Positions 6,001-27,475 of a stretch of 64,000 bases of DNA are shown here, piece after piece (positions within the stretch are counted from its first letter, which is position 1; the number at the start of each line of letters is the position of its first letter). The stretch is from contig NC_089316.1 of the NCBI RefSeq assembly GCF_036669915.1, forward strand, positions 14,831,605-14,895,604. Reading direction: 5' to 3'. The DNA is from Pocillopora verrucosa (Eukaryota; Cnidaria; Anthozoa; Scleractinia; Pocilloporidae). Both the position numbers and the translations under genes were made by a program. The notes under the pieces are model-generated. The model did not search any database. It worked only from the letters and a program-made list of their open reading frames with translations, and was not told where the DNA came from.

Positions 6001-6895
6001 GTTGAAGGCTGACAAATGACAACTTTACTTGAAGGTTTCCCATTATAATTTCTATTATTAGAACCAACACCTGAAATATCAGGCTGATCAATAGCTGGAG
6101 CTTAGCTGTACCAATCAGGAACTCTGGTCATGGGTGAATGCAGTTATTCCAAATAATGATGACTTTGGGCAGGTGTAATCTTGACCGCCCCCTTGGTATA
6201 AATTTCTTTCTCTCCCCAGCCTTCTGCTGCCATTAAAATTAAAGATGGTGGCCATACTTTTCTTTAAGAAAATTCTGAGTATTCACCTACCATAATTACG
6301 CCTGCTCTGCAGGCTATACAGTTCCATGCTATTTAATACAAAGCAATAGTTCTCTCTGTAGCCCCAAAGGATATTTATTGTTTCCACCTTTGTTCTCTTT
6401 ATCCAGGAACTGTACGCATACAGAAGTAAGGGGCTGTGCGGAAATCTTACCCAGTTTGGCAAGCACAGTTTTCTCTACCGCTTAAGAGGAGCCACACAAA
6501 GATATACCGCAAATAGAGAGATAGGATGTATCTTGACGAATGCAGCTTTAAAAGTGGAGAGAGAATGGGTGTGCTTATACAACCAAGAACTTTCTTGGCC
6601 TTTGGCTGGTTAACCACTAACAATATCAATTACTAACTTGATTTCCATCGGTACGGACTGATGTAAATTTTCATCGATTATTGATTAAATCAACAGGATA
6701 CCCCGAGAGCAATAAAGATACGCTGACAAACTGTAACATAAAAGAGAGACCTACCGTGGCTTTTGTTATTAGGAAAACTGAATCTTGACTGAAATGTGGC
6801 TGTTCCGGAGAACTTTTCATGATTGTTTTGACTCTTGCGATTGGCAATTGAGTTGCCTTTCCCGCGCTGCTGTCCACGCTCGTTTTCTCCGCCAT
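3037..6895 (-). CDS. CHRAC1: Chromatin accessibility complex protein 1 (histone fold)
   Basis: Four coding exons on the minus strand: 6895-6755, 4873-4795, 4165-4124 and 3143-3037. They are joined by GT-AG introns with phases 0, 1 and 1. Total 369 nt, 122 aa. CHRAC1 is the small H2A/NF-YC-like histone-fold subunit that pairs with POLE3 in the ISWI-containing CHRAC remodeller and helps nucleosome sliding in the nucleus. Residues 17-33 (LPIARVKTIMKSSPEQP) match the hallmark IMKSSPE stretch of animal CHRAC1, followed by ITKATELFIDYL, LTYKGLSKVV, LQFLGDIVP and the acidic SSSSESE tail. Human CHRAC1 is 131 aa, so length fits. The gene shares a 92-bp intergenic promoter with GEMIN7. Introns 1 and 2 hold repeats at 5180-6452 and 4325-4665. 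Confidence 0.93.
3287..3325. repeat. TAA/TGA trinucleotide microsatellite
   Basis: About ten consecutive AAT units with two GAT interruptions, lying upstream (transcript-downstream) of the CHRAC1 last-exon acceptor. It is a simple repeat. Confidence 0.85.
3725..3850. repeat. Dispersed repeat ending in AATTGTTCAGGTGCT
   Basis: Located in the CHRAC1 intron between exons 3 and 4 coordinates on the opposite-strand flank (3144-4123). It carries TTCACTGAGCCT, GCAAATAATTGTT, AGTATAATTG and CAGGTGCT in the same order as 29500-29565 in the Pumilio intron. Both are copies of one family. Confidence 0.6.
4325..4665. repeat. Dispersed ~340-bp repeat, copy A
   Basis: In the intron between CHRAC1 exons 2 and 3. 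Shared blocks with 46775-47120 in the same order include TTGGTTGAGAG, ATTCAAT, CCTAGTTTTCAAGCCC, GTGTTCTCAAACTTTT, GAATTC and TGATAATT. Identity is patchy, so both copies are old. Confidence 0.65.
5180..5425. repeat. Foldback/MITE element, truncated copy 1
   Basis: Lies in CHRAC1 intron 1. Blocks GCATTCTGATTGGCT, GGAGGACAGAC, AATAGATCACAGA, GACATCAAAATGT and CAGTGACACAC match, in reverse complement, the longer copy at 10735-11045. A T-run of about 24 nt sits in the loop region at 5361-5384. Confidence 0.65.
5553..6452. mobile_element. Candidate TIR element (GGTAAGATTTCCGCACAGCCCC ends)
   Basis: Left end at 5553-5575 and right end at 6430-6452 are near-complementary (core CACAGCCCCT / AGGGGCTGTG). 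The same terminal word flanks the 140-bp unit at 62721-62861. It sits in CHRAC1 intron 1, carries no transposase frame that I recognise, and is therefore a non-autonomous or chance pairing of two family ends. Confidence 0.4.
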
Positions 6896-6987
6896 TTTGA
6901 AAGACACCAACCAAACTATGCAAACGGTCAGCGGAATCATCAAGCTCGTTCCACACTGCTTTCTTCTTCCTAAACGTTGTCGAACAG
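6896..6987. promoter_or_regulatory. Bidirectional promoter between CHRAC1 and GEMIN7
   Basis: Only 92 bp separate the two divergent start codons, so one region must serve both genes, and their 5'UTRs must be very short or overlap. No TATA box is obvious. The arrangement is typical of housekeeping gene pairs. Confidence 0.7.
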
Positions 6988-7320
6988 ATGGAGGATCCCT
7001 CTGCAGATCCAAGTTCACCAAGCTACCAAATCTCGCCAGAATGTGAATCGAAGGTTTTAACAACTGATATCGAAGCTGAGCAAGATGCGAGGGCTCAACT
7101 TAGAGATGTATTTCTTCGTTCTATCTTTGCGTCCTGTAACAAGCCAGCTTGCTTTTTGATGCACGAGAAGACTCAAGTGGAAGCCATCTTTGTGGCTACA
7201 GACATAAACATAGAGAATTTCCAGGTATCTGAACTTCAAACTCCAATGGGAGTAGTCAATGAGGCTTTGCTGAGGTCGTCTGATGTGCTGTCATTTACAA
7301 TAGACCTTGAAAAGAAATAG
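6988..7320 (+). CDS. GEMIN7: Gem-associated protein 7
   Basis: Uninterrupted 110-aa frame with ATG at 6988 and TAG at 7318-7320. Gemin7 has an Sm-like fold and pairs with Gemin6 in the SMN complex, which loads Sm proteins onto spliceosomal snRNAs. Residues 35-105 align with human Gemin7: ARAQLRDVFLRSI, CFLMHEKTQVEA, FVATDINIENFQVSELQTP, MGVVNEALLRSSDVLSFTI. The N-terminal 34 residues are acidic and Ser/Pro-rich and not conserved. Human GEMIN7 is 131 aa. It is head-to-head with CHRAC1 and convergent with the CULT gene. The whole coding region is one exon. Confidence 0.93.
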   Translation: MEDPSADPSSPSYQISPECESKVLTTDIEAEQDARAQLRDVFLRSIFASCNKPACFLMHEKTQVEAIFVATDINIENFQVSELQTPMGVVNEALLRSSDVLSFTIDLEKK

Positions 7321-10462: not shown

Positions 10463-13400
10463 CTAAGAAACACTTTCCTGGTTCTGAGGGTTTCCCCTGA
10501 ATGAAGGTTCCACTGAAAATGATATCAGTACATTCTCTGTGACTGTAAACTTACAGTGTTCCTCAATAAGGTTTGGGTATATGAGGCCCACAAAAGAGTG
10601 AATTATTCTGGAATTGCCTTTATTCTGTTCCTTATGGGAGGAGAGATCATCCCAAAATTTAGAAGTTTTCTCCACATAATCTTTAGGATGACGATGTTCA
10701 AATGACCTGGAAAAATTTGGTAACAGTCAATTAGTTGTATAATTAACAAATAGATTCCAAGTTGCCATGCATCTGTCCAGTAATAGATCACAGATGACAT
10801 CAAAATGTGGTAAGAACAAAAAGGTGGCACACGAAGGTGCAGCCGAGTGTGTCACTGATATTCTTACCACATTTTGACGTCCTCTGTGATCTATTACTGA
10901 ACAGATGCACGGCAACTTGCAATCTATTTGTTTTATATAATAAAGAATTAAAAAAGTTTTAATTATAATGTCATCTATACGTCTGTCCTCCAATAGATCA
11001 TAAGTGAGAACCAATCAGAATGCGTGCATAACTGAGCTTATTATATAAAATAATATAACGATCAGTGATAGCCTCAGTACGACTAAAGAATATGAGCAAC
11101 ATTAACTTGTCTGCGCTGAATTTGAAGCTTTTGTAATTTCCTTAACCCTTTAGACCCTAACATCAGTATAAATATTCCCCATACTGTTCTCTATACATTT
11201 CTGAAGGTACTGACAAGAAGAATTTGTCTATCAATCAAGAGGTTCTGTCTTTGGTGATCATTGCCTTATTCTCATGCCTTTAATGTTTGATTCAGGGGTG
11301 ATACTGTTAGGAGAAATTAGATGCTGGTCAATCTTAGGGTTAAAAGCTTAAAATTTACCACATGGAACGTGTCTGCACCAGATTTAGGAACTGCAATATA
11401 TTGCTTTGATATTGTCTTTTCTTATGTTTCTGCAATATTTGAGAAATAATGCACTTTGTAATTGCAAACATCATCATTGCACAAAACTACTGCAACCTAG
11501 TTTTTCAAGGAATTACCTCGATTGAGCTTTCAGGGCATGATCAAAAGAGGAAACAAGAAATATTCTTAGGAAACCTTAATTTTTTGATAGACATAATAGG
11601 CCTTAAGTTATCAACTTCTATTGGAGAAATGCATGAGTCTATAAAGGGAGCTATTAAAATGCGTAGTGAAGACAGGCAACAGAAAGTGTTCAAAACAAAA
11701 TCTACAGACTTCAAGTGTCAAAATGATGTCAGTTGTGATAGACAATAAGCAGTCTTACCATCCCATATGGACACCACACTGAGGGCAAACAGCTACCCTC
11801 CATGCATAGCCTGGAAACCAGGAATGCTCCTCAAAGGCCTAAAAGTTGAAAGCTCTACTCAGCTGCATGTGTAATTATTACTATCATTATTTTCAAAATT
11901 ATTTGACTGATTCTTCTTGTATACATTTCCTTGTTATTATTGTTAGTTCAACTAGGCTTGTGTTTGTTATTTTAATTACATCTCATTTGTCATGCTTTTG
12001 TTTTTAATCAGTCCCAAGGATTTAAAAATGCTGGGTCTTAAATCACAGATCACACTGATTACTAATCATTTTAAAAACCTTATTTTTCAAATGAAAGTGC
12101 TTCTAGTGTGTTGATAAATCATGTCAATTGCTCACAATGCGATACATGTGATGATACACAAGCACAAGCGCAAGCACAAGCGCAAGCACAAGCGCAAGCA
12201 CAAGCGCAAGCACAAGCGCAAGCACAAGCGCAAGCACAAGCGCAAGCACAAGCGCAAACCCAAGCATAGCAGCTCTTATTGGACTGTGGACACAGCCTTG
12301 ACACAAATATAAATATGAGCACATGCACAAAGATCAGACTTTTTCCTTTTTTCCCCCCTGATTTTGCTTGTACTTGCATCAAGGCTGTTTTCAAAGTGAA
12401 ATAAGAGCTCTTGTGGTTGTGGTTGTGGTTGCATTTGTGCTTGTACCTGCACTTGTGTCTGCATTGTTGTACTCAACAACTAGGGTGAAAAAATTAATAA
12501 TGAATAAAGGGGGAAAGTTTCTAATTTCAAGAAATTGTGGTGCTGCATCAGTTGAAGGTATAACAAGATCATTTGGTTTAATCAAATGAGTTGATAGTGT
12601 AAATTGGCAATGGTAAAGAGTTTCTAAAGCTGGATTTCAAGTGCTAGCCTTTTGCCACTCACTCTGATGAAGGGTTAACACTCCAAATACCAGTGATATA
12701 AACTCTTTACTGTGGCCATTTACAACATCAATGAGGTTTACACCTAAACATTTGAGTTGTTGATTCTGTCAATTTGACATTGCATATATTTCTTTTCATA
12801 GACTCAACAGTGAATTTAACAATTTACACCTACCTCACCAAGACTTTTGATATTAGCTGATGTTACTGTTATTAGCTCAAAATGTTGACCTGAAAAATAT
12901 ATGGTCAAGCAGAAAATATGAAATTTATAACAAACCATGATGATTCTCTGTATAAAAAAGTTTGGTCATATAGGGTATCAACAACTCATACCATGAGGGT
13001 TTCTGAAGAGCTGGATAAGACACTGTTTCACCCCTAGAATAGTGTCATTCCTCTGTCGCAGAGCCAGTTTACTACCTAAATTGTTGAGGTATGCAGCCAC
13101 AGAGATGTCCTGCCCACACCGTCGACAAAGCAAGGTATCTGCAAATATACAAACTGTTCTTTATCAAGAGGGCTATGTCATGATGTAAAGTGAATTAGTT
13201 TCTCAAACATTATGAACTATTTAAAAGCATTCTGTATGACAGTTATAGCAGATCATTTTTGTTGTCTTTTTTATCAGTCTTCTTCAAAGCAAGAGGTGCT
13301 TACATAAAATTGAACACATAAACCAAACCAGGGGGAGGGCATTTGAACATTTGAAGACTGGTTCATTCAAATTCCTGCTGTTCACCCCAAAATTGCACTG

Positions 13401-15686
13401 CAAAGCCCCAGTCAAGCACAATTTTTTTCTAAAAATTATTTGTATGATCAATGAATGTTGCTGAATTTAGCAAAGCCATGTATTAGTTTTTGGTGTCACT
13501 ATTTGGTTTTTCCCCTGTAGGCATCATACTGCGATGTGAAAATTTTCTTCTAAGCCATTTGCTCATGAAAACAGACTCTTTACCTTTAAACTACTCCTTA
13601 TTTTGATTAAAAACATGTGCATTTTGCTGGTTCAAATTCCCCATCCCACTCTGGCAAGGTTCCAATTCCTCACCCCTGTAACATAGTCAAATGTCTGTGG
13701 GTTGCTCAGGGAGGGGGGTGGAGGTGTTGAAGCTTTAAATTGATTGGGGCACTATGTGTAGATAGCCGTGTGTTTTGACTTTGAGGGAGGTAGAAGGAAG
13801 TTAAGTTTGAAAATGTGTATTTGCGTGCTCTGTATTGTTTAAATTTATTTTGAGACTTTCTGTTAGATGAAATATGTACGATAAATGTTGCTTTCCTTAG
13901 ATCATAGAATGGAACTTTTGAATCTGTACAATAAAATATGGGGATGTAAGTAAATTTTAAGGACACCCACTGTTCCCTGGCTCTTAAAAAAGGTATTGCT
14001 TATCTCTACTTAGTTACCATCATTATCACTTTTTTGTATGTAATTAATATAAGCAGCCTTGTTTATGGTTAACAACTGACATTGACATACACAAAAGTGC
14101 ACCCAAAGTCACATAAAAGAGTAAGTCTTCATAATGTTTCCTTTTCTTTTTTTTTTAAGTTGAATGAGAACTTTAGGTTTTTGACCACAAAATTCATCAT
14201 CACCCATGGTTGTCCTACCTCTGAATGTACTGAATAAACCCCCCCATTAACAAGTTGATCACCGTTGGAAAGTTGCTCATCAGATTTGAGGGTTGATGTG
14301 TTTAACAAAGAAAAAAAGAAACTTGTCAGTAACTGGTAACATTCATCAGAGCCTATCAAGTTCAAAACTAGTCAGTTAATTGAGAAATCTCAAAATGAAT
14401 AATGATTGACAGAAATTTATTGTTATTTTCTCAATAATAATTTATGGATTCTTTTCTTTTCAATTACAACTGTGATAAATGATCATTATCAATTTCCATG
14501 TTGTGGAGTGAAAATGGAATGGAAAATTTACTGTCACATCAAGGGTAATGATCTTTATAAATTAGTTTCTTCAAAATACAACACATGCAGGTGGGACACA
14601 TACAAAATTAGTGAACTGTTAACACAAAAAAGAAGGGACCAATGAAAAACTATCAACACTGATTTAGAATTCAAACTGTAAACTTGCCTAATTACTAATT
14701 AACTGAAGAACACTCAAATTGATCAGTAATCAACATTATCTTATAAACAACAATTTGAATTTGCTATTACACTATGGCATATTCTTCATCCTTAGTGATG
14801 AATCTCTGGTTTGATTGAAGGAAAATTGTGTGTCCACAATTGAAATGGTGTTTATCACTCTTCCTGTGGCTGTGAACAGGCCAGGACCTGAGCCAAGGGT
14901 ATGTTACTTGAGATATAAACTTAATACAATGAGACTTAGAAACTTGAACCCCTTTTACATTGGGTTTCTAGAAAAACAAACGGTATAATATACTGGGAAA
15001 ATTTTCCTAAACCTGGATTTTAATTATGTGATTCCAGTATAATCATTTGCACTTTAGTTTATTATCATATGAACATGACAGTAAATCTGAGGAAGGAAAA
15101 TAGAACGAAGGGGCCGCAAACTTGGAGTTATTGATTGGACAAGATTTCAGGGTGTCTTTCAAGTTGGTGAGGCCTAGCACTGCTATACAATCACAAGATA
15201 CTTTCATCAGGGTAGTTGTGAAAATCGTGTATCTGTTATCTGAACCCTTCCGTTGCAATGCAAAAGTACACGATTTTGATTTTAAAGCCCACAAATATCA
15301 CTAAGATCAAAGTCAACTAATGATAAATAGTTCGAGAAGGAAAACAGGAAAGTGAGGACTTAGTGGATTTTACAGATGGGTTTTCATTTGTAGACATGTG
15401 AAGGAAGGCAGATTTAAGATAAATTCCAACAAAAGGAGGTAATGTGCTTTGACGCTTACGGTTTGTTCAAGTTCCATATCAAGAGCAACCACGCGCGCAA
15501 AAACACTAAAAGAACAACAGAGACCAAGTACGCACTCTTGCGTGACAGCTAAAATTTGCATGAAAACAAAGTGAAATATATACCTTGATGTTGCTGTATT
15601 TCCACAATCGTTGAAAACGCTACATCAACGCTTAAACATACTATAGCAACAAGAGCTAGGAAACGGTTCCAATGGTGAGATTTCAT
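10463..15686 (-). CDS. Secreted CULT-domain protein (cereblon-like drug pocket)
   Basis: Five coding exons on the minus strand: 15686-15584, 13138-12992, 12889-12834, 11838-11759 and 10706-10463. They use GT-AG introns with consistent phase. Total 630 nt, 209 aa. Residues 1-25 form a signal peptide (basic MKSHHWNR, then a hydrophobic core to AFS). The rest is a single CULT domain, the fold that binds thalidomide in cereblon. The zinc ligands are C39-x2-C42 and C120-x2-C123. The cage tryptophans W109 (EHSW), W115 (GYAW) and W129 (MGW) keep the 6- and 14-residue spacing of human cereblon W380/W386/W400. NPHG (81-84) is also conserved. There is no Lon-like or DDB1-binding region, so this is not cereblon itself. 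Single-domain secreted CULT proteins are a known but uncharacterised animal family. The natural ligand is unknown. Confidence 0.9.
10735..11045. repeat. Foldback/MITE element, copy 2, with 184-bp palindrome
   Basis: The palindrome at 10747-10930 has arms sharing CAAATAGATT, AACTTGCNATGCATCTGT, AGTAATAGATCACAGA and CAAAATGTGGTAAGAA, with a GTGGCACAC/GTGTGTCAC inner stem. An asymmetric arm to 11045 matches copy 1 at 5180-5425. It lies in the last intron of the CULT gene. Confidence 0.8.
11142..11344. repeat. TTAACCC-ended ~200-bp element, copy 2
   Basis: Begins TTAACCCTTTAGACCCTAA and ends CTTAGGGTTAAAA. Internal markers CCATACTGTTCTCTA and GGAGAAATTAGATGC are the reverse complement of those in copies 1 and 3. 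It is in the CULT gene's last intron. Confidence 0.8.
12158..12266. repeat. 12-bp minisatellite (ACAAGCGCAAGC)
   Basis: About nine near-perfect tandem copies of a 12-bp unit. The unit length is a multiple of three, so several frames stay open on both strands. That explains the apparent Lys/Arg/His and Leu/Val/Ala repeat frames. It is in a CULT-gene intron. Confidence 0.9.
12265..12420. repeat. Inverted repeat beside the 12-bp minisatellite
   Basis: AGCTCTTATT...ACAGCCTTGA at 12270-12305 is mirrored by TCAAGGCTGTTTTCA...AATAAGAGCTCT at 12378-12413. A second tandem stretch (GTGGTT and GTGCTTGTACCTGC words) follows at 12412-12465, so the minisatellite also has a diverged inverted counterpart. 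Confidence 0.65.
12550..12770. repeat. Palindromic dispersed repeat (CTGATGAAGGGTTAACAC core)
   Basis: The left arm (GAGTTGATAGTGTAAATTGGC, GTAAAGAGTTT) is mirrored on the right by AAACTCTTTACTGTGGCC and ACATCAATGAGGTTT. The centre holds CTCTGATGAAGGGTTAACACTCC. Related pieces occur at 2640-2830, 41325-41400 and 56700-56840. This organisation resembles termini of Penelope-like or other retroelements (inference). Confidence 0.6.
13488..13750. repeat. Dispersed ~250-bp repeat, copy A
   Basis: Shares in order ATGTNAAAATTTTCTTCTAAGCC, ATTTGCTNATGAAA, CAAATGNCTGTGGGTTGC and a G-rich tract followed by TGTTGA with 36436-36660 in the PEF1 intron. It lies in CULT-gene intron 1. Confidence 0.75.
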
Positions 15687-22900: not shown

Positions 22901-25900
22901 AATTCAAACTTGAAAGGAAAATTAATTGAATGTGGCAGCTTTAGAGGGAAAAAACTTTTAAACCTGATTAAAGCTCTTTTGTGCCACCTATAAAAGTAAG
23001 TCAGTAGTCTCAACTCAAAATTCACCTCTGGAAACTCTCAAGAATCAAGTAACAGAAATCCTGTTTTGAGTTTTAAGGCTTAAAGAACTTTTTGGTGTGA
23101 TACCTTAATTTTATGCAGACAAACTAGTTAGTTTTCAATGATTCTGCAATGATATATTTCTTGTTGAAGGTGGTCAAGATTGTCTTGGATAAGTGACTGT
23201 AGTGTAAGCTGAAACAGGAAAGGTGTAAATAAAGGAAAGTTTCAGTATGGCAGAGAACTTAGCTATGTAGGAAGTATCTTTCTGAGCTTGTTGCTTAAAC
23301 TGTTGAAGTAATTAGAGAGCTTACTTTTAGATCAGCAGTAAACTGGTTCAAGCCTAGTTGTAATGGAAAAAAGACACTCAATATAGAAACTCTAATCTTT
23401 GTATTGGGCAGGATCCATGCTGTTAGGATTTTTACCCATTAGTTAGGCATAAGGTAAAAAGCTTTAAGTGAACAATTAGTTGCATGAAAATTCCTTTCTT
23501 TTCTTGTCTGAAAAGCCTGGAAACTCCATTTGAAAGTCTTGCAACTTGACTTGAGCCTCAATCCTTGAAATTATCAAGTTATTCTCCAGAATACCTTGAC
23601 CTTGGCATTGCAGAACTTTAGTAATTAATGCAGCTCCAGCAGCTCATTGTTGAATCAAGTTTATGATTTATTCATAAATTTTGTCTGAATTTCATTTTCT
23701 GTAAGACTTTGAGTTGAGGTTGCTAGAAACTGGTTTTTTCAATATCTTTGAAAATTTTTAGAAGTCCTGGTAGATGGACAAATGTAGGTTTGAAATTTTC
23801 TAAAACACAAGCATGGCTTTCAACTTGTGATGTTTGCAAGTCAATTTGCATGTGTAGCACTATAAGGTATGCCTTCTGGTCACCTGTTTCCTGTTTCATC
23901 AGAAATATAGTTTTAGTAGATGGTTTGTTTGTAATAACATCATTTGCGGAGGAATCTTGTTAGGGGAACATCATTAAAAATCTTTTGAACTTTTGAGTTC
24001 CAAGAATATCTGCTCTCTCAAGGGCAGCTGTTTCAGTTAGGATCATGCTTCTTAACCTGATTGTCTCTGCAATACTTATTTTTTTTTGTTAGCATAAGTC
24101 TAGAGGGGTGTTCAAATGCTTTTTACATCATGCATTCTAACAGTGCACTTGTACAGATTGGAAAAAAAAAAAGAATAAAAAAGTTGGAGTGAGTTTAGTA
24201 TTGATCATTGACAAAGATTGGTGAACAAGATATATCTGTTGTCCTAAAGATAACTTGAGTGAAATATTGCACATTATAATATTCTCAAAGGTATAGAAAA
24301 TTTTTATGCATTTTAGTATTTTAAATTGTTCACACTTCATATTATTTCCAACCTTCTCCCCACCTCCAAAAGAAAAATGAAGAAAGAAAATTCATAGATT
24401 TTTGTTTGGAGGTTACGTGGGATCGGCAGTTTGCAATTGTGCAAAGTTTTAAAGGCAGACAGTTTCTTTGGAGAAATTCTAGAAACATGACATGGAGAAA
24501 ATGTATGCAAAACTTCTGGCATATGCAGGGTACTATTATGCTTGTGATTGTTTTTGGGATGAGTAATCTTTAGTTCTTGGCAATTAAATTTTAGTGACAA
24601 TAACTTAGTTTTCTGTGAGAATTGAAACAAACCACCACCAATAAAAATAAACCCTAACCCTAAATTAATAGTTATGGTTTTTATTACTTTACCTCAGTGT
24701 CAAGCAAACATCTGGTACCTCTTTTGTGTTGGGAATAAGACATCTGCAAACTGACTTTCACATGAAGAGAGCTTGCATGAAGAAAGCTAATTGTGTCTGA
24801 AGCCCTGGTGATTTTCCAGAATTTTTCAAATTGTGTCAAAAATTGTCTTTGATTTGCTCCTATTAGTTTCCTAACTGTCGTTTCCCAGGTTTGAATCCTG
24901 AAATTGATGGTTCTTTCTGGTCAGAAATGCATGAGGAGATAAGCAATTCCACATAACATTTCACTTGTTTCTTTTTTTAGCCGAACACCTGGCAGTAGAC
25001 AACCATCTCCTACTTCAGGCCCTCAACATCAAGATGCTCAGCAGACCACCCAAACACAGCTGCCCACACAGCAACCAGTGGGTCAGAACAAAGCCAAACC
25101 CTTCAAACAGTCTGATGTTATGGAAGATATTGTCACGCCTGTGGCATTAATAGATCCTCTGGAAAGTGTACCACTGGAGCAACTTTCATTTGCACCCCAG
25201 AGAGAGCCTGTGGTGGGTACTCCTACAAGTCCATCAGATTTTGTTATGGTCTCTGGAGCATCTTTACAAAGCCATAATGCTCCCTCTCAGCATGGTCAGT
25301 CACTTCACTTGACACAACATCAGTTGGCATTAGCAATGGCTGCTCAACAACAGCAACAACAGCAACAGCAACAACAACAGCAACAACTTGGATTGCAGTC
25401 TGGCTTGCAATCCACTGGTATTGGCCATCCAAACCCATACTTCATCACAGCACCACCATCCCAAGATCCATATGGTAATCCTTCACTTGCTGCAGTCAGT
25501 GGCGGTGCCCATCAGGTGGTCCATCCTCAATATGCAGCTTATAGTGTTCAACCATGGGGTGTGTATTCTGCAGCTGGAGCATCAGGTACAGGAGGATACC
25601 TTCAACAGCAACAACAGCAACAACAACAACAGCATGCTCAGCTGCTCCGCTCTAACTCGGGTGGGATGACTGGACGGCCTATGCAGGGACAGGTGGAGAT
25701 TATTGGGACTCCGCCATCACACCAGCAACAGGCAATGGCTGCTGCATCTTCTGGAACTAACTACCAGCTAGTAGCTCCAGCTGGGGCAGCCCCTTTGGGA
25801 CTAGGAACTACTGCTTACTATGATCAGTCAGGGAACTTGGTGCTAGGGAATACACAAAATGTTAACAATATGGCAACAGCACAAATGGCAGCTAGTCAGA

Positions 25901-27475
25901 TGGGAGCCCTCAGAATGGTATCACCAGTAGTGGTAAATGCCCAGAATGCAGGTGCCAATTCTGTCACTGGAGGACGACTGGGAAATGCCAGCTCAATGGG
26001 TGGTGCATCAACATTAGGGCTGTTTGGACAACAGCAGCAACAGCCACAATTGAATAGCAGTGCTCTGGGTATGCTGGGAGGTGTTGTGGGAGGTTCGTCT
26101 GGAGTTGGGGCTGTTGGTACCATTCCAGGTGGAGGAACTAGAAGAGATTCTATGAATGCTACTGAATATGGCAAACGAGCAGGAATCACCCAGTACTATA
26201 CAACCCCGGGTGCTGTAAGCAGCCTTGCAAGTTTGTCAATCTCAGCACAACCATCTTACAATACTCCCCAGGAGCTGCCAACACCTCCTCTTCTTTCACA
26301 GGGACAGTCAGGGTTTGGTGGTCAGTCAGCATATGGCGGACAGTCAGGCTTCACTGTAGGAAGCCCCTTATCCAATGGACTCTCTCGTTACATGCAACTT
26401 GCAGCTGCTCCCAGAGATACTCCTACAAAATATCAGGGATCACTTGGTGGACTAGGTGGAATGCAATATGGCAGCTCAGCTTTAGGTGTTGGTAGCTTTA
26501 GAGGATCAAGAGGTAAAGAAACAGGGAGAAGTAGGCTTTTAGAAGACTTCCGTAATAATCGCTATCCCAACATCCAGCTGCGTGACTTGGCAAATCACAT
26601 TGTGGAATTCTCACAGGACCAACATGGTTCAAGATTTATCCAGCAAAAATTAGAACGTGCTTCTCCTACTGAAAAGCAGATGGTTTTTCATGAAATCCTC
26701 CCAGCTGCTTACAGCTTGATGACTGATGTGTTTGGAAACTATGTTATACAGAAGTTCTTTGAGTTTGGGAGTCCTGAACAGAAGCATCACCTTGCCAACT
26801 GCATTCGGGGACATGTGCTGCCTCTTGCCTTACAAATGTATGGATGTCGCGTCATACAGAAAGCATTGGAGTGTATTTCTCCAGATGTTCAGGTATGTTA
26901 ACCCTCAGTGAACACGTACTGTATTTCTACTAGAAATATACATCTAAGGATCAGGAAATTCACTCAGCCACAAATGGTGCAATATTAGTCTTAAATTGAA
27001 GTACTGAAATATAAAAATATCTTGTACAGTTTTGTGAAGTAAATTTTAGCTGTGCTGAATCAAAGCAATTGTGAAGGTATGATTTGTCCTTGAATTGATG
27101 TCCTAATAGATGGTGAGACACAAAGGCACTTATTTAACTCTTTAACTCTTTAACTATCATGAGTGACCAAGACAGAATTTCTCCCTACAATATTAATAAA
27201 ATATCTAGCAGAAATGAGGTGAGAACAGAGAAAAATATCAATAAGGGGATTATAAGGTGCTCCAATACCAAATTCCCAAACTAACATTATAAGAATTTTA
27301 TGGTAGACAGTAAGGGGAATTACTCATGTGATCTTGCAAGTGAAAGGGTTGAGAACTCTTATCCCTTTCCCTCCCCAGATCTCTTTCTTAATTCTCCTGA
27401 CTGTTTGCTAAACAGTTCTTGTGATGCAAGTTTGGAGAATTTGGTGCTTGATCAGCTAATGATCCCCTCATTGAT

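Follow-up and report, generated by a model that had tools for sequence, protein, structure and literature searches.

The window analysed here is a stretch of 64,000 nucleotides from Pocillopora verrucosa contig NC_089316.1, and all coordinates are positions within it. On its minus strand, between 15686 and 9228, lies a putative gene of six exons that, with a probability we put at roughly 0.85, encodes a secreted protein of 193 residues consisting of a CULT domain only, a protein of a known kind. Joining the minus-strand segments 15686-15584, 13138-12992, 12889-12834, 11838-11759 and 10706-10463, as in an earlier sequence-only reading of this DNA, gave 630 bases in a single open frame (209 codons plus stop). 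All four introns were of the GT...AG type, bearing out the junctions proposed in that reading (15584/13138, 12992/12889, 12834/11838 and 11759/10706). The first in-frame ATG is at 15686; upstream of it the frame runs back through 54 Met-free codons to a stop. Exon 1 (15584..15686) runs from this ATG through signal-peptide-like residues 1-25 (15686-15612), with likely cleavage after Ser25, and ends in phase 1. The first CxxC (residues 39-42, 13127-13116) and an N-glycosylation sequon, N65-D-T (13049-13041), are encoded by exon 2 (12992..13138), in which an NPHG hairpin motif also begins (from 13001). Exon 3 (12834..12889) encodes GQHFELITVTSANIKSLGE, the region linking the hairpin motif to the aromatic cage, and exon 4 (11759..11838) encodes AFEEHSWFPGYAWRVAVCPQCGVHMG, with cage residues Trp109 (11820-11818) and Trp115 (11802-11800) and the second CxxC (120-123), ending with the first two bases of the Trp129 codon. 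The last base of that codon, Phe131 and the domain-final FVGLI (10594-10580) are in exon 5, for which a revised end is proposed below (10555..10706) and which holds a stretch exceeding the bacterial median by 29 residues. Because intron 4 splits the Trp129 codon (TG|G), the identity of the third cage residue hinges on this junction, which is supported by the match of window GWSF to cereblon GWKF. Apart from its own exons, a tblastn search of the product over the window returned two weak matches attributable to chance (E 0.67 and 9.0), and no second CULT copy was seen at E<=10.

The 3' end of the gene probably differs from that given previously. The conserved end of the domain (F167, G169, L170 and I171; 10594-10580) is encoded by exon 5, and eight residues past it stands a GTAAGT donor (ACT|GTAAGT, 10555|10554). 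On a crude matrix this donor scored 7.27, ranking between the donors of exons 1 and 2 (6.66 and 6.57) and the higher-scoring ones of exons 3 and 4 (9.37 and 9.38). A phase-matched minus-strand exon at 9271-9228, behind the pyrimidine-rich acceptor TTTTGTTGTTTTATAG, would complete a Tyr codon and add ADSLIVTPKAYRS before a stop, reading YADSLIVTPKAYRS plus stop; the resulting product of 193 residues terminates in EEHYADSLIVTPKAYRS followed by the stop. This tail would resemble those of secreted animal CULT proteins. Acceptors with at least 12 pyrimidines in 18 positions number 20 in the 3 kb past the exon 5 donor, so the acceptor alone is weak evidence for exon 6. Taking the splice signals together with this putative family motif, we consider it quite probable that exon 6 is the true 3' exon, and the product is probably 193 rather than 209 residues long. 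In the 193-residue model the last 30 residues and stop given in the sequence-only reading (10463..10554) would be intron read-through and probably belong to the 5' end of intron 5 (10554-9272). Two of the upstream introns contain repeats. In intron 3 a 12-base unit, CAAGCACAAGCG, is repeated 8.9 times at 12159-12265, forming an array enclosed by imperfect inverted repeats extending to 12462 and lying within a 117-residue open minus-strand frame. In intron 4 a foldback element at 10738-10939, with 79-base arms 90% complementary around a 44-base spacer, resembles a mobile element of the short inverted-repeat type.

The predicted protein contains CxxC pairs at 39-42 and 120-123 (C39/C42 and C120/C123) and Trp at 109, 115 and 129, so that both zinc pairs were found as the sequence-only reading had described them. 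When the product was searched against PDB sequences with phmmer, all 46 distinct matches at E<=10 were cereblon-named ('Protein cereblon' or 'Cereblon isoform 4'), with best E-values of 4.2e-15 for the 193-residue form and 4.5e-15 for the 209-residue form. The second of these names covers the bacterial homologue 4v2y from Magnetospirillum, according to the available text of PMC4287342. No Pfam family reached its curated cut-off in the 193-residue product, consistent with a CULT-only make-up. A single CULT domain is almost certainly present, judging from these matches and residues. As to the claim that parts of an E3 adaptor are lacking, it held within the range covered: no LON domain was matched by Pfam in the 193-residue product (E<=1; the upstream strand was not searched for LON exons), and the first zinc cysteine comes after only 38 residues.

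The ligand pocket is very likely formed. Over 53 columns, core residues 79-131 and the aligned piece of cereblon share 53% identity, and the segment EHSWFPGYAW is identical in the two proteins. By alignment N81 and F131 correspond to cereblon residues that we take to be N351 and F402 in human numbering, and a Phe of the window protein occupies the position of a cereblon His, presumably H357. The residues E106 and H107 align with cereblon E377 and H378, and W109, W115 and W129 with W380, W386 and W400, with Trp spacings of 6 and 14 in both proteins, exactly as claimed beforehand; the human numbering of E377, H378 and the three cage Trp follows the available text of PMC8900816. Pocket residues compared and found to match cereblon were N81, P82, E106, H107, W109, W115, W129 and F131. 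According to the same text, glutarimide is bound in the bacterial homologue by Trp79, Trp85 and Trp99 and by the backbone of Phe77 and Trp79, the ring bonding the backbone at the positions of H378 and W380, while a cage-base Tyr in the bacterial protein gives a third bond (PMC8900816). The pocket of the window protein should bind uridine- or glutarimide-like rings. A pairing by HMMER of window SKFW (144-147) with cereblon KFW was set aside, the bacterial alignment placing the final strand at FVGLI (167-171) and SKFW inside the long W129-F167 stretch.

To set the domain among its bacterial relatives, a prokaryote genome collection was scanned; a relative is encoded at 68 of the 122 pattern matches, and these define 68 loci (L001-L068). 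A strict motif search recovered the frame in 54 of the 68, and after two loci were left out (L026, wrong frame, and L067, aberrant end) a profile built from the remaining frames and the window protein found a CULT frame in all 68. Seventeen columns hold one residue in at least 62 of the 68 loci, and the window protein keeps every one (C39, C42, N81, P82, W109, F110, G112, Y113, W115, C120, C123, G128, W129, F167, G169, L170 and I171); among these the cysteines, G128-W129 and the F-x-G-L-I end lie outside the search patterns and are unbiased. The zinc-cysteine columns carry Cys in 65-67 of the 68 loci, and all three Trp plus all four Cys are present together in 65. Core identity between the window protein and bacterial CULT reached 51% at best, with a median of 43% (66 of 68 loci compared), and the core is not clearly closer to cereblon (53%) than to the nearest bacterial sequence. 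Two stretches are longer in the window protein than in the bacterial ones (65 loci for each stretch): C42-N81 has 38 residues where the bacterial range is 19-23 (median 22), and W129-F167 has 37 where it is 7-17 (median 8). Around the bacterial loci, 343 open reading frames (ORFs) of at least 100 residues in flanks of up to 3 kb were clustered. The most-shared neighbour families (in 11, 11, 8, 5 and 5 of the 68 loci) all came from one set of 12 loci, mostly Desulfobacula/Desulfobacteraceae, with a common gene order; other neighbour clusters covered at most 4 loci. The Pro of W-F-P-G is replaced in 13 of the 68 loci, 12 of which are the 12 loci sharing gene order, and this near-complete confinement suggests a distinct bacterial subgroup. 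Scans of viral contigs with short exact peptide patterns matched 22 and 5 stretches, of which 0 were confirmed as relatives, and tblastn gave no phage or plasmid match at E<=0.01.

The start of the protein looks like a real signal peptide by simple criteria, in agreement with the sequence-only reading. Residues 1-25 comprise Lys/Arg followed by a hydrophobic run, whose Kyte-Doolittle mean peaks at 3.07, and end in A-x-S at the likely cleavage site (after Ser25); the criteria applied (hydropathy, n-region and (-3,-1) positions) were set by hand after the sequence had been seen. At a donor threshold of 3, exon 1 alone passed among five minus-strand phase-1 first-exon candidates in 19000-13200, whilst over the whole window and both strands 9 of 295 candidates passed, exon 1 among them. 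Stricter donor thresholds left window-wide passes of 7/214, 3/131 and 3/38. At the strictest, near the donor score of exon 1 itself, the local result was 1/1, and the three window-wide passes were all among 9 minus-strand candidates, with 0/29 on the plus strand. The product has one N-glycosylation sequon (N65), and a KDEL-type C-terminal end is absent from the 193-residue form. Given this start and the domain make-up, we hold with high confidence that the protein belongs to the secreted CULT group.

If so, signal cleavage would direct the product into the secretory path and, with no KDEL-type end, out of the cell. Its three Trp and Phe would then form a cage for a cyclic imide or ureide with a ring of five or six members. 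Hydrogen bonds from the backbone at positions H107 and W109 would hold the ring, in the way that cereblon and the bacterial homologue hold glutarimide. Having neither a LON nor a DDB1-binding part, the protein should not act as an E3 adaptor; the most likely role would be that of an extracellular binder sequestering or recognizing such rings, which could derive from C-terminal cyclic imides on damaged secreted proteins or from free uridine/ureide metabolites. We propose with modest confidence that the ligand consists of extracellular cyclic-imide or ureide groups, possibly cyclized protein C-termini. Cereblon recognizes C-terminal cyclic imides, and engineered cereblon derivatives serve as a reagent for them (PMC11974815, a preprint, in its available text); that such ends are the main ligand is a tentative proposal, which we rate at clearly less than even odds. 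An explanation of the same standing is that the ligand of the secreted domain is a small free metabolite (uridine, uracil or hydantoin-type ureides such as allantoin), the protein acting as carrier, scavenger or sensor. The bacterial homologue takes uridine and not cytidine or thymidine, although without a consolidated biological context (PMC4449219, available text), and Lupas et al. (2015) argue in the available text for a widespread ligand found outside the cell (PMC4287342); allantoin itself enters only by inference. Sequence alone cannot separate cyclic-imide protein ends from free uridine/ureides. The proposal of an extracellular ligand in the sequence-only reading is plausible. A more speculative and rather unlikely extension is that secreted animal CULT proteins read the ageing of extracellular proteins, binding cyclized Asn/Gln ends on secreted or matrix proteins and marking or clearing them, the pocket being coupled to a partner through the tail and the long W129-F167 stretch. 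If true, this would make them an extracellular counterpart of cereblon.

Several results weigh against the six-exon gene for a secreted CULT protein as set out here. The Pfam Yippee-Mis18 model (PF03226) gave the 193-residue product 18.2 bits vs a curated cut-off of 26.6, so that of the Yippee/Mis18 check suggested earlier a weak match stood and family assignment did not; the At4g08330 beta-tent model likewise gave 19.7 bits vs a cut-off of 27. A rough bacterial CULT query also fell under the Yippee-Mis18 cut-off (23.3 vs 26.6 bits), and Pfam may therefore lack a sensitive model for the CULT family. Pfam was consequently dropped as proof of family, being sub-threshold for both the window protein and the bacterial piece, and the PDB matches were used in its place. 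The fetch patterns of the bacterial scan held WFPGYAW or NPHG, and conservation in the W109-W115 and NPHG columns is thus partly there by construction. Of the 33 columns in which 70% or more of the bacterial loci agree, the window protein kept 25 and differed at eight (residues 47, 73, 77, 90, 91, 92, 96 and 127). No neighbour family was widely recurrent or CULT-specific around the 68 bacterial loci, and so nothing there points to a ligand. Finally, a weak codon test scored exon 6 at -0.236 vs 0.053 for the read-through tail, with exons 1-5 at -0.078. Since its training set was three exons and exons 1-5 fared no better than the tail, the test is uninformative on this choice; as it ranks exon 6 lower, exon 6 stays at the level of something we infer.

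The codon scores bear on the possibility that the five-exon form of 209 residues is true, or exists as an alternative through retention of intron 5. The frame does stay open for 30 codons beyond the donor and the codon score of those is not low, but the GTAAGT so close behind the conserved end of the domain, and the phase-matched short exon at 9271-9228 with an end that would resemble those of secreted CULT proteins, make that form improbable, and the 209-residue C-terminus claimed before is replaced here by the 193-residue one. A further suggestion is that this is the CULT part of a cereblon gene, with LON exons upstream and exon 1 misassigned. The near-equal identities of the core to cereblon and to the best bacterial CULT mean that the domain alone does not exclude it. 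We nevertheless think it very improbable: a correctly phased exon resembling a signal peptide is found 2.4 kb upstream, beyond a GT-AG intron, the product gave no LON match within the limits stated above, and cereblon is not known to have insertions like the long C42-N81 and W129-F167 stretches. That the locus is a pseudogene or non-expressed copy has scarcely any likelihood, given 193 codons over six exons with GT-AG junctions and no stop or frame break, and all 17 of the most conserved bacterial columns kept.

Elsewhere in the window, ten long ORFs were compared with Pfam, five having a family at E<=0.01 and five no match. The matches were to Gemin7 (2.7e-27), Pumilio repeats (1.2e-33) and a CBF/NF-Y histone fold (4.2e-07) and, at scores short of the respective cut-offs, to EF-hands and a tropomyosin-like coiled coil. 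At 6671-7320 the Gemin7 frame (plus strand, likely ATG 6988) and the CBF/NF-Y histone-fold frame (minus strand, likely ATG 6895 or 6940) are arranged head to head, their starts being less than 0.1 kb apart. A long plus-strand frame at 24943-26901 combines Gln-rich stretches with Pumilio (PUF) repeats. No tRNA was found in the window.

Secreted CULT-only proteins have been described from placozoans to fishes by Lupas et al. (2015), and the claim that such animal proteins exist without known function agrees with the available text of that paper (PMC4287342). In the same text residue conservation is highest in a core group made up of cereblon together with secreted and bacterial sequences, so the conservation of the cage residues in the secreted group was already published and the weight earlier placed on novelty is not warranted. 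The secreted sequences that the paper lists include zebrafish NP_001121712.1, Trichoplax XP_002115135.1 and Nasonia XP_003427162.1, whereas the words 'Nematostella' and 'Cnidaria' are absent from its main text. Among the CULT/cereblon papers listed, a set from which subscription papers are mostly missing, this was by titles and the beginnings of abstracts the one on the secreted group; the word 'secreted' is absent from the text of both PMC4449219 and PMC11974815. A sand fly salivary homologue is cited in PMC4287342, and a 17.2-kDa salivary protein is related to mosquito hypothetical proteins in the available text of PMC2714351; that this 17.2-kDa protein is the sand fly CULT homologue is a guess. 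The gene thus adds a member to a group described in 2015 and the biology itself is not new: taken alone, it is one further sequence for that group. The group does carry the thalidomide pocket without the ligase, and its natural ligand would therefore show what the pocket recognizes apart from protein degradation. The product, whose gene model is corrected here and whose pocket is of the cereblon type (Phe cage base and His before Ser-Trp), lends itself to expression and testing for this purpose.

Among known systems, Yippee/Mis18 (PF03226) has its beta-tent fold and zinc site in common with CULT (PMC4287342, available text) and matches the window protein weakly, below the curated cut-off. Bacterial CULT proteins of the MsCI4 type have the CULT domain and the F-x-G-L-I end in common with it; their cage base is Phe in 35 of the 68 loci and Tyr in 30, and Ser-Trp follows a Phe in 45 loci and a His in 10. 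The window protein has Phe at the cage base and His before Ser-Trp, in both respects like cereblon. Cereblon further shares the second CxxC, the three cage Trp and the E377/H378 positions, and the window product differs from it in its signal-peptide-like start and in giving no LON match (Pfam, E<=1). The secreted eukaryotic CULT proteins are described as a CULT domain standing alone behind an N-terminal secretion signal, the same make-up as that predicted for the window product.
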